Shown one piece after another: positions 25,801-29,390 of a DNA stretch of 36,408 nt. Positions within the stretch are counted from its first letter, which is position 1; each line of letters opens with the position of its first letter. The notes under the pieces were generated by a model. That model was given only the letters and a program-made list of their open reading frames with translations, searched no databases and was not told the DNA's origin. A program made the position numbers and the translations under genes. Source of the DNA: Candidatus Zixiibacteriota bacterium (lineage in GTDB: Bacteria > Zixibacteria > MSB-5A5 > JAABVY01 > JAHJOQ01); the NCBI GenBank assembly GCA_018820315.1, contig JAHJOQ010000087.1, positions 1 through 36,408 on the forward strand, written 5' to 3'.

Positions 25801-26172
25801 TCACTTTGCCTTTATGTAAGTTTGAGTGGAGCATGCGTGATCGCGTGCGTCGATATCTGTCCAGTTGACTGCGACCGTGACGTCATAAAGACCAGGCGTG
25901 CCCAGAGCCGAGATGTCCCAGGATCGCAGGACACCGCTAACGACATCGCTACCAGAATTGAGACTCGCTTCCGGCGTGCTCTTCAGTTGCTCGATCTTCT
26001 CTCTTATCAACTGCGACGAGAGGGTCTCCATCTCCGACCAACTGTTACTCTGGATTGAAACCACGAGCATCGACATTAGGAGCAGCAATCCGAGACTGAA
26101 GATAAGGAGACCGACCATTACCTCAAGTATCGAGAAGCCGTCCTGAGCGAGCATTTTCCTGAGTTTTTTCAT
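25801..26172 (-). CDS. pilV: PilV-like minor pilin
   Basis: The 123-residue product starts at the ATG at 26172, with GAGG 7 bases upstream; a start at 26271 would lie upstream of the sigma-54 promoter and add residues before the prepilin leader. Leader KKLRKMLAQDG is cleaved before FSILEVMVGLLIFSLGLLLL, with Glu at mature position 5. The short globular part includes SQLIREKIEQLKSTPEASL, typical of PilV after the helix. First gene of the operon with PilW and PilX; these minor pilins form the pilus tip or priming complex. No fimT, pilY1, major pilin or assembly ATPase is in the window. Confidence 0.83.
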   Translation of the reverse strand: MKKLRKMLAQDGFSILEVMVGLLIFSLGLLLLMSMLVVSIQSNSWSEMETLSSQLIREKIEQLKSTPEASLNSGSDVVSGVLRSWDISALGTPGLYDVTVAVNWTDIDARDHACSTQTYIKAK

Positions 26173-26210
26173 ATTTTGACCTCGCACATAAAGTTTCACT
26201 TGAAAGCTTT

Positions 26211-26225
26211 GCAAATGTGATACCA
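26211..26225 (-). promoter_or_regulatory. Sigma-54 type (-24/-12) promoter of the pilVWX operon
   Basis: On the minus strand TGG (26225-26223), 10 bases, then GC (26212-26211), within TGGTATCACATTTGCA; the TTTGCA -12 element is a full match and the -24 is TGGTA. Transcription would begin near 26199, 27 bases before the pilV start and upstream of its ribosome site. Sigma-54 control of pilin genes is well known from Pseudomonas. Confidence 0.6.
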
Positions 26226-26873
26226 GCGCAGCACCAAAATATGAGCAGTACTTCAGTACGCTGGCACACAACGACTTAGGCGCATTCTCGGTGTGCGAAG
26301 TCTGGAGCGAGGCGATGCTCTATGCACTTTCGATTATGGGGGAGAACCAACACATGTAGGAAAGGTCGGCTTTCGATCTTTGCTTGGTTTGGTGCCCTGT
26401 GGCGCTGTATGCTGTGGCTCCTGTGAGTGCCGCAAGAGAAAGCGCAGAGGAACAGCCACTGCGCCACACTCTGAATGACGGGCAGATTGCCACGGCAGGT
26501 CAGAATGCCAGGTTTCTCACCGGCACGCGCCCAGAAATGGGGCCGAATACGGTCCAATGTGGCACTCAGGAGGCTCACAGACGCCAGCAGAAGACTGCTG
26601 AGAACCGAACTCGCGGGAAGATGTCCTTGTGGACATGCTCGCGGGCAGGAATCCTTGATGACCCGTCAGGATGGAAATCCTGACGGCTGCGAAAAAGAAC
26701 AAAGCGACGTGGCGATCTCAATGTCTCACCAAGTGCACACAGGAGCTGTGCTCCTGTGTGTGCTGTGCGGAGGCAGGGAATGACATCCGCAGTGTCCTAT
26801 AATATATATTATGTAAACGTGCGGGGCTGAATCTATTCGACATCTGGGATCTGCGATGATCAGGTTGAGATTC
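26226..26873. repeat. Noncoding region with a cluster of hairpins
   Basis: About 650 bp between pilV and leuS lack a credible gene; several overlapping frames of 60-100 residues have no start signal or recognisable sequence. From 26398 on there are many inverted repeats: TGTGGCGC/GCGCCACA (26398-26405 with 26461-26468) enclosing GTGGCT/AGCCAC; CAGCA/TGCTG (26585-26600); ATGTCC-TTGT-GGACAT (26621-26636); a perfect 10-bp stem CCGTCAGGAT with 4-base loop (26663-26686); a perfect 10-bp stem CACACAGGAG (26736-26760); and TGCGGA/TCCGCA (26766-26791). None has a U-tract like a terminator. The palindromes look like a mosaic of small repeat elements. Confidence 0.55.
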
Positions 26874-29390
26874 TTACTTCACGACAAGATTGACAAGTCG
26901 GCCCGGTACAACAATCTCTTTGATGATCTGCTTGCCTTCAATGAACTTCTGAACGCGCTCTGAGGCCTTTGCTGCCACCAGAAGCTGCTCTTTACCCGTG
27001 TCAGCCGGGACATCGATATTGTCGCGGACTTTGCCGTTGATCTGAACGACTATCGTGATAGTATCAGCCACGATTGCGTTAGCATCGTATTCCGGCCAGT
27101 GCGACTTGAAGACGCTCGTCTTGTATCCGAACATCTCCCAGGCTTCTTCAGCCAGATGCGGCGCCAGCGGCGCAACAAGCTGTGTCATTTTCTGCAGCAT
27201 GTACGGATAGAATTCCGGGTTGTCCTGCTGCTTCAGGTCAGCGGAATCATTCATGAATTCCATTATGGCCGCAATGCAGGTATTGAAATGCAAGTCATCG
27301 ATATCGTGAGTGACCTTTTTAATCGCCTGATTCAGCTTGACGTAGATATTCCACGCCGCCTGGCCGAGGTCATCTTTGGTGAAGTAGCGCTTTAAGTCCA
27401 GAGGTTTGCGGTCCTGGCAGCCATCTATCAGCCTGTAGAATTTGGTCACGAATCGCTCGACACCGATGACGGCCTCGTCCGACCAGAGAACGTCTTTCCC
27501 AGCCGGAGCGGCAAAGAACATAGCGAGACGCGTCGTATCGACGCCCCTCTCCCCCATCACATCAATCGGAGAGACGACATTCCCCTTGGAGCTCGACATG
27601 GGCACGCCTTCGGCATCGTTGACCATGCCGTGATTGACGAGCCTCAAAGCCGGTTCATCGATATCTAGATAGCCGATATCCTTCAAGAACTTCGTGAAGA
27701 ACCGGAAGTAAAGCAGATGCCCTGTGGCATGTTCGAACGTACCGCCAATATAGAGATCAACCGGCAGCCACTTGCGCGCCTTTTCTTTGTCCCACGGCTC
27801 GTTATCATTGTGGTTATCAGCGTATCTGAATAGATACCACGAGGAGCAGACAAACGTATCCATCGTGTCAGCGTCCCGTTCAGCAGGGCCGCCGCACTTG
27901 GGACAGGTCGTATTGATGTATTCCTTGGCATCGGCCAGCGGAGATCTGCCTTTCGGGACGTAGTCGTCGATTTCAGGCAGCAGAATCGGCAGGCTTTCGG
28001 CTTTTTCAGCGACCGGACCACATTTTTTGCAGTGGACAATCGGGATCGGACATCCCCAGTACCGTTGGCGGGATACGAGCCAATCTCTCAAGCGATAGTT
28101 TATCTCAAATCCGCCAATACCTTGTTTATCAGCATATTGTGTGACTGCCTCTATTGCAGATTCGCCCTGCTTCCCATCGAAATGATCCGAATTCGTCATC
28201 GTGCCGAGATCGACATACGCCTCAGTCATATCGTCGACTTTCAACGTGCGATCAGGCGGATTGATGACCACTTTGATCGGAATGCCATACTTCCTGGCGA
28301 ACATAAAGTCGCGCTGATCGTGAGCCGGGACTGCCATCACGGCACCCGTTCCATAAGATGCGAGCACATAGTCGGCGATCCAGAGCTGGACCTTCTCGCC
28401 GGAGAATGGGTTCATTGCATAGCAGCCTGTGAATACACCGTCTTTGTCATCGCTGGCTGTAGTGCGCTCGATGTCAGTCTTCTCAATAGATTTCTGAATA
28501 TAAGCAGTGACCTCTGCGTTCTTGTCCGCCGGTATCGGCAGCCTTTCAACGATATCAGCCTCGGGGGCAATTGCCATAAACGTGACACCATAGACGGTGT
28601 CGGGACGCGTAGTGAAAACGGGCAGCTTCTCCCCTGTTCCGTTGATCGCGAAATCGATCCTGCAACCGGTCGATTTGCCGATCCAGTTGCGCTGCATGAT
28701 CCTAACGCTTTCGAGCCATCCGGGCAGATTATCTAGCCCCTGATGCAGCCGCTCGGCGTAATCGGTGATCCTGAAGAACCACTGTTTCAGCTTACGCTTG
28801 GTCACCGCGTTGTGGCAGCGCCAGCACTTCCCTTCGGCGTCGACCTGCTCGTTTGCGAGCACAGTGTTACAGTCCATACACCAATTGACAGAAGCTTCTT
28901 GCTGAAAAGCGAGATTCTTCTCGAAGAGTTTTATGAACATCCATTGAGTCCACTTATAGTAATCGGGAAGGCAGGAAGCGACCTCTCGGTCCCAGTCGTA
29001 GGAGATGCCGACTTTCTTAAGAGTGGACTTCGACTTTTCGATATTTGCAAGCGTCCAATCGCGCGGGTGGAGCTTGTGCTTAATTGCTGCTCGCTCCGCC
29101 GGCAAGCCAAACGCGTCCCATCCGAATGGATGCAAAATATCATGTCCCTGCATCATCTTCCATCGCGCCATCACATCGCCGTACGTGTAGTTGCGGAAAT
29201 GCCCCATATGAATGTCGCCGGAGGGATAGTTGAACATCACAAGCACGAAATAGGGATTCTTCGGCATGTCAGGAGCCTTGAACAGTTTAGTCTTATCCCA
29301 GCGCTTTTGCCATTTGGTCTCGATTTCCGAGAATGGATAGCCGCCGGTCGATTGCTTCGCCGGTGCCTCAGTCTTAGATTTTTCCATCAT
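26874..29390 (-). CDS. leuS: Leucyl-tRNA synthetase
   Basis: An 838-residue class I synthetase, near the usual bacterial length. The HIGH motif is HMGH (61-64, after FNYPSGDI). The zinc-binding insertion has CMDC and CWRC (171-192), and a second Cys cluster is CPKCGG near 496. The CP1 editing domain includes TTRPDTVYG (260-268) and GTGAVMAVPAHDQRD (348-361). The catalytic lysine motif normally KMSKS is PMSSS (597-601, within GVPMSSSKGN), so both lysines of the motif are replaced, while a Lys follows at 602. The C-terminal VVQINGKVRDNIDVPADTG segment is the typical tRNA-binding end. Two adjacent ATGs at 29390 and 29387 are equally likely starts. Confidence 0.95.
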   Translation of the reverse strand: MMEKSKTEAPAKQSTGGYPFSEIETKWQKRWDKTKLFKAPDMPKNPYFVLVMFNYPSGDIHMGHFRNYTYGDVMARWKMMQGHDILHPFGWDAFGLPAERAAIKHKLHPRDWTLANIEKSKSTLKKVGISYDWDREVASCLPDYYKWTQWMFIKLFEKNLAFQQEASVNWCMDCNTVLANEQVDAEGKCWRCHNAVTKRKLKQWFFRITDYAERLHQGLDNLPGWLESVRIMQRNWIGKSTGCRIDFAINGTGEKLPVFTTRPDTVYGVTFMAIAPEADIVERLPIPADKNAEVTAYIQKSIEKTDIERTTASDDKDGVFTGCYAMNPFSGEKVQLWIADYVLASYGTGAVMAVPAHDQRDFMFARKYGIPIKVVINPPDRTLKVDDMTEAYVDLGTMTNSDHFDGKQGESAIEAVTQYADKQGIGGFEINYRLRDWLVSRQRYWGCPIPIVHCKKCGPVAEKAESLPILLPEIDDYVPKGRSPLADAKEYINTTCPKCGGPAERDADTMDTFVCSSWYLFRYADNHNDNEPWDKEKARKWLPVDLYIGGTFEHATGHLLYFRFFTKFLKDIGYLDIDEPALRLVNHGMVNDAEGVPMSSSKGNVVSPIDVMGERGVDTTRLAMFFAAPAGKDVLWSDEAVIGVERFVTKFYRLIDGCQDRKPLDLKRYFTKDDLGQAAWNIYVKLNQAIKKVTHDIDDLHFNTCIAAIMEFMNDSADLKQQDNPEFYPYMLQKMTQLVAPLAPHLAEEAWEMFGYKTSVFKSHWPEYDANAIVADTITIVVQINGKVRDNIDVPADTGKEQLLVAAKASERVQKFIEGKQIIKEIVVPGRLVNLVVK

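Follow-up and report, generated by a model that had tools for sequence, protein, structure and literature searches.

A cluster of REP-like hairpins between leuS and a pilV-like gene in a Candidatus Zixiibacteriota bacterium

REPs are short palindromes that are repeated genome-wide. According to excerpts of PMC3733652, PMC6006769, PMC8266576, and PMC3116915, REPs tagged by GTAG or GTGG form intergenic hairpins of ~20–25 nt, occur as inverted pairs, have a conserved tetranucleotide immediately before the foot of the hairpin on its 5' side, and adjoin genes of REP-associated tyrosine transposases (RAYTs, such as TnpAREP). The GTAG motif is contacted in E. coli TnpAREP by residues that include Q95 and R104 (excerpts of PMC8266576 and PMC6006769). 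RAYT subclass 2.6 is described as mostly from Bacteroidetes and as having "atypical secondary structures" (PMC6006769, in part). Excerpts of PMC3733652, which covers CGTC, REPs, transposase, and palindromic repeats together, describe a further kind of repeat with a CGTC end, an 8–9-bp stem, a loop of 4–5, and a CCA tail; its dimers have no dedicated transposase known in those excerpts. A literature search found nothing joining "REP-associated tyrosine transposase" and "Zixibacteria", and one for Zixibacteria, transposase, and palindromic found nothing on topic, as judged by the start of the abstracts. The letters GTCATTGCGAG turned up only in papers that appear unrelated by title.

Here, we focus on a hairpin cluster in a window of 36,408 nucleotides, which is the whole of contig C87 in a 3.78-Mb genome of 173 contigs. 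An initial annotation had read the cluster as REP-like elements or an RNA. The REP-like reading is supported for the best hairpins by copies throughout the genome and by eight RAYT genes.

The gap and its hairpins

A gap of 701 bp separates leuS from the pilV-like gene (Table 1). A pilW-like gene and a PilX_N-like gene lie downstream of the pilV-like gene, and the best of the named relatives among the matches listed for leuS are mostly Candidatus Zixiibacteriota MAGs at 57–59% identity. No sign of coding was found in the gap ORFs scanned with Pfam and NCBIfam: four ORFs of 61–102 aa have no Pfam family at E ≤ 0.01, and three of these four have no NCBIfam match. The scans covered four of five ORFs, the fifth being one of 61 aa at 26293–26478 on the plus strand. 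Searches of the gap found no sigma70 promoter (0.7 expected) and one terminator (0.6 expected). No known RNA family was recognized, as nothing in Rfam passes the gathering thresholds; a permissive scan returned two miRNA matches far under threshold.

The hairpin cluster is real and exceeds chance, as judged from the located stems and from dinucleotide shuffles. Two perfect stems of at least 8 bp occur in the gap, compared with a shuffle mean of 0.07 (none of 400 shuffles reaches two), and four of at least 6 bp, compared with 0.76 (2 of 400 reach four). The hairpins at 26663–26686 and 26736–26760 are the only perfect stems of at least 10 bp (loop 3–10) in the whole window. The nested long-range pair of the initial annotation is also present, with 26398–26408 and 26458–26468 being 91% complementary over 11 nt. 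The direct repeat CTCGCGGG exists as well: one copy lies at 26638–26645 as had been stated, and the other lies at 26610–26617 and not at 26609–26616. The hairpin that these copies frame weakly resembles GATGT..ACATC palindromes of a few fetched loci. Three hairpins (26585–26600, 26621–26636, and 26766–26791) have little or no family support.

Table 1. Features of the leuS–pilV gap and its surroundings, in window positions.
Feature	Positions	Strand	Remarks
pilV-like gene	25804–26172	minus	N-methylation motif just below the Pfam cut-off
leuS–pilV gap	26173–26873	none	between the leuS stop (26874–26876) and the pilV-like start (26172)
sigma54-like promoter	26209–26225	minus	TGGTATCACATTTGCAA; 52 nt before the pilV-like gene
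Composite repeat, right half	26411–26494	plus	partial family-B hairpin, hairpin 26442–26464, degraded CGTC-type right half
Imperfect hairpin	26442–26464	plus	partner hairpin within the composite right half
Perfect hairpin	26585–26600		6-bp stem; without family evidence
Imperfect hairpin	26610–26645		around 26621–26636; framed by CTCGCGGG repeats
Perfect hairpin	26621–26636		6-bp stem; weak family evidence
Truncated inverted partner of family-A REP	26638–26656	minus	AAGGATTCCTGCCCGCGAG on the minus strand
Family-A REP (perfect hairpin)	26663–26686	minus	CCGTCAGGAT..ATCCTGACGG; 10-bp stem, 4-nt loop; leader GCAG here, TGCG in the family
Composite repeat, left half	26697–26765	plus	degraded CGTC-type left half, then family-B hairpin
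Family-B REP (perfect hairpin)	26736–26760	plus	CAGGAGC-TGT-GCTCCTG; 11-bp stem, 3-nt loop; intact leader GTGCAC
Imperfect hairpin	26766–26791		without family evidence
dif-like site	26792–26819		GTGTCCTATAATATATATTATGTAAACG; 28 bp, beside leuS, conserved in Zixiibacteriota-like records
leuS	26874–29390	minus	right neighbor of the gap

Two REP families and a composite CGTC-type repeat

The hairpins are not each unique to the site. With 40 out of 113 initial candidates scored, the gap matches 30 other places in its own genome at E ≤ 1e-3, and the genome-wide count proposed by the initial annotation gave 34 and 17 sites for the best hairpins, including the window's own. The 34 sites belong to family A, CCGTCAGGA..TCCTGACGG, and were found with the pattern CGTCAGGA-N6-TCCTGACG at ≤1 mismatch (reversed control, 1). 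Exact family-A sites number 20 in the own genome, 38 in G001 (a sister genus), 25 in G011, 13 in G020, and 9 in G014, and there are 1 or 2 in seven further genomes. The family is therefore present in 12 of 21 genomes, with no exact site in the other nine and none in the control throughout. Among 30 copies from fetched loci, selected by dropping sites with equal G and C in the loop beforehand, the leader has GCG at -4 to -2 in 25, 22, and 29 copies, respectively. Most of them read [T/A]GCG, and the first pair after this is C-G or T-A as a rule. Several family-A copies are followed by an inverted GGCAGGAAAGGATTCCTGCC partner.

Exact matches to family B, CAGGAGC-N3-GCTCCTG, number 17 for the own genome, 4 for G001, and 1 each for G007 and G014; the remaining 17 of 21 genomes and the control have none. 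Its exact 23-nt core has no match in viral contigs. Among 26 copies from fetched loci, with loops other than TGT, TAT, and TCT dropped beforehand, G stands at -6 in all 26 and C at -1 in 24; the leader is GTG[C/T][A/T]C-like, and the first pair that follows is complementary in 24 of the 26. In addition, an inverted pair of family-B type is enclosed in a CGTC-type dimer; the resulting composite is a repeat in its own right.

Both families are short palindromes repeated genome-wide. A tetranucleotide preceding the foot of the hairpin is conserved in each (judged from 30 copies of family A and 26 of family B), and copies adjoin a RAYT gene, at contig C73 for family A and at contig C522 of G001 for family B. 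Families A and B resemble the GTAG-tagged REPs in these respects and in their hairpin size of ~20–25 nt, inverted pairs, and intergenic location. Unlike those REPs, neither family has GTAG or GTGG as its leader, which reads [T/A]GCG in family A and GTG[C/T][A/T]C in family B; the host phylum also lies outside the host lists in the excerpted literature. Because their leaders are GCG(C) and GTGCAC-like, the two families are not filed as GTAG-type REPs.

The window holds the composite in pieces: its right half, then the family-A pair, then its left half, whose first 31 bp (26697–26727) were also counted as a composite half. In 10 of 20 fetched loci, the counterparts of 26697–26765 and 26411–26494 are adjacent, in the opposite order compared with the window. 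The fuller order is a CGTC-type half, an inverted hairpin pair, and the other CGTC-type half, and the inner inverted pair consists of CAGGAGC-TGT-GCTCCTG and CAGAGGC..GCCTCTG. Without this inner pair, the CGTC dimer lies within an element of ~150 bp with ends GGGCTTGTTGAAAAA..TTTTTCAACAAGCCC. A typed 152-nt form of the element gives 43 match rows in the own genome, where some elements account for two rows, and it matches 8 of 21 genomes, outside the own genome mostly as single 30–40-nt units. At the center of one of these elements (L035) is a REP pair resembling family A. Because composite copies and L035 show such centers, REP pairs are nested in CGTC dimers, and the dimers in a palindrome.

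CGTC ends and inverted dimers are observed for this repeat, the window's own CGTC end being degraded. It shares with the CGTC-tagged REPs and dimers in excerpts of PMC3733652 the outer CGTC ends, the inverted dimer, and a palindrome of the GGG..CTTG..GAAAA kind. It differs from them in its longer unit, its imperfect stem, and the other REP pairs held centrally in some copies. As a separate observation, the palindromic ~150-bp element with GGGCTTGTTGAAAAA ends occurs across L029–L096 of the own genome; the flanks of several of these copies form an interrupted inverted repeat, some resembling GTCATACCG..CGGTATCCA, as if the element had been placed inside the loop of another palindrome.

Ends of the GGCTTGTTGAAAAA type give 39 and 38 matches in the own genome (controls, 0 and 1). 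An autonomous transposon with these ends was looked for by eye; facing pairs lie ~140–215 bp apart and none 1–3 kb apart, and since the assembly is in 173 contigs such a transposon may be missing from it. A RAYT directly flanked by the CGTC-type repeat was likewise rejected, as the repeats in L060 and L066 lie ~0.8–1.1 kb from the gene and none adjoins it.

RAYT genes and leader recognition

The search for a REP-associated tyrosine transposase, which the initial annotation had proposed, gave eight RAYT genes in the own genome. All eight match Y1_Tnp, seven of them above the Pfam cut-off, and all eight proteins exceed the 80-bit cut-off of the NCBIfam model for REP-associated tyrosine transposases. 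A perfect palindrome lies within ~30 bp of the gene at seven of them, and the palindrome near the eighth (C40) has one mismatch. Family-A copies flank the C73 gene: one hairpin overlaps the 3' end of the gene, and another lies shortly before its 5' end. A hairpin at 1183–1206 of L064 overlaps the 3' end of a RAYT gene. The single Y1_Tnp match of G001 is cut by the end of contig C522 and scores 85 bits with the NCBIfam model; a family-B hairpin lies 6 bp from its stop codon. None of the eight own RAYTs is flanked by family B, the nearest being C159, with a composite copy ~1.1 kb away. RAYT-type matches occur in 19 of 21 genomes. Because RAYTs are common also where families A and B are both absent, their presence as such is no predictor of these families. 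In a side observation at L061 (C103), GTGG-CCGCGATC palindromes lie on either side of the RAYT, with three copies within 0.8 kb.

When nine RAYTs are aligned, six own proteins (C134, C83, C89, C40, C138, and C159) have both Q95 and R104, and a GTAG palindrome lies beside all six genes. Compared with PDB 4er8, the C134 protein retains both residues, whereas the C73 protein has K95 and S104. The G001 protein, which adjoins family B, has Q95 and Y104. It may be that Zixiibacteriota RAYT lineages read non-GTAG leaders and that the leader and the GTAG-contacting residues change together, although on present comparisons this is a tentative idea and rather doubtful. The link is at best suggestive, because the C103 protein also has Q95 and Y104 and adjoins palindromes with GTGG, and because the C73 gene's own two family-A copies have the leaders AACG and TGTG. 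If the idea were true, both unusual kinds of REP would be present in the window, and a readable pairing code would link protein to leader.

The C73 and G001 proteins resemble RAYT subclass 2.6, as tabulated in the excerpts of PMC6006769, in the motifs NHxH and YIHxNP (NHFH and YIHNNP in C73, NHLH and YIHENP in G001) and in their non-canonical flanking hairpins. C73 departs from it in having WK where the subclass row has WQ, and the comparison covered motifs and flanking hairpins.

Origin of the cluster at the leuS–pilV junction

The two genes lie together in seven relatives (L098, L099, L101–L104, and L107), with gaps of 336–557 bp. The window's hairpins are absent from the junction in all seven; six of these gaps have no perfect stem of at least 8 bp, and the two of L107 are unrelated. 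Here, 640 nt separate the dif-like site from pilV, versus 275 and 278 nt in the two same-family genomes. The excess of ~365 nt is near the 381 bp of 26411–26791. Because this distance varies between 269 and 447 nt among all seven relatives, the excess is 193–371 nt and not a fixed number. The gaps fail to align with those of the relatives outside two short motifs, so the insertion is read from length, and no empty site was seen in a near-identical genome. The hairpin cluster was probably inserted in this lineage, because the hairpins are absent from seven relatives and the gap is ~365 bp longer than in the two same-family genomes.

One conserved motif, GG-N8-TTGC, is sigma54-like. It occurs 48–62 nt before pilV in 8 of 8 gaps, including all seven relatives, with a pattern that was chosen after seeing the sequences.

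The dif-like site occurs once in the genome at ≤3 mismatches and has 25 of 28 bases identical to the Syntrophus dif given in an excerpt of PMC2731167. With its length of 28 bp, its likeness to known dif sequences, its single occurrence, and its position near a GC-skew shift, it is a putative Xer site. A similar sequence (≤6 mismatches), inverted relative to leuS and within 300 nt of its end, occurs in 16 of 73 testable named loci, by title 13 Zixiibacteriota and one each of FCB group bacterium, Ignavibacterium sp., and bacterium. The 57 loci that do not have it, L121 included, are from other phyla or untitled; at the same threshold, 16 further matches occur elsewhere in 830 kb. The GC-skew peak is expected near the replication terminus. 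The cumulative skew of this one 36-kb contig peaks at 22.5 kb and stays on a plateau to ~27 kb, with its maximum 4.3 kb from the site, which probably marks the terminus. That the REP block lies beside it is probably coincidence, because the seven relatives have no such block there. In L107 (relative G005), two facing TTATCCAC sequences, presumably DnaA boxes, lie beside the dif-like site.

In all likelihood, the cluster is a pile of decaying, non-autonomous REPs and REP pairs that entered the leuS–pilV gap one after another. Repetition, shared leaders, pairing, RAYT adjacency, and absence of the hairpins from seven relatives are what is observed. Small palindromic elements would have entered the gap of this lineage successively and would now be decaying. 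Families A and B would each have an identifiable candidate mover in a RAYT, presumably acting on folded single strands, and the cluster would have no selected role at this place. Counting against this explanation are the three hairpins with little or no family support, the altered leader of the window's family-A copy (GCAG), the lack of an empty site, the variable gap excess, and the lack of an own RAYT flanked by family B.

It is improbable that the block is a structured RNA (a pilin-operon leader or a small RNA), possibly one that was recruited from repeats. The block does lie upstream of a conserved pilin operon, and 26380–26820 folds strongly on both strands (z of -5.9 on plus and -4.7 on minus). 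However, it has no Rfam match, such hairpins are absent from the seven relatives and recur elsewhere in the genome, and the sigma54-like promoter 48–62 nt before pilV would start transcription downstream of the block.

The chance is slimmer still that part of the block was left by a larger element which had integrated at the dif-like site before the REPs arrived. Insertion sequences that target dif have been published (PMC10132070, in part), and the block's end at 26791 adjoins the first base of the site; yet the genome has no second dif-like site at ≤3 mismatches, the scanned gap ORFs hold no coding remnant, and the best-matching pieces are genome-wide repeats. That the hairpins are inverted repeats arisen by chance in noncoding DNA has a negligible probability, for although the three weak hairpins could each be chance, two stems of at least 8 bp appear in none of the 400 shuffles, and the long stems at 26663–26686 and 26736–26760, for which chance is refuted, are genome repeats.

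The hairpins of this locus are most likely ordinary insertions rather than a new RNA. As a mosaic of decayed and partly nested REP elements, the locus is of an ordinary kind; less ordinary are the non-GTAG leaders, the REP pairs nested in CGTC dimers, and the dif-like landmark. Elements of this kind are familiar, but the phylum has been little studied. REP/RAYT pairs exist in Zixiibacteriota, where REP pairs also nest in CGTC-type dimers, and two REP families have candidate movers that can be named. For the question of how a RAYT recognizes its leader, families A and B offer naturally occurring variants.
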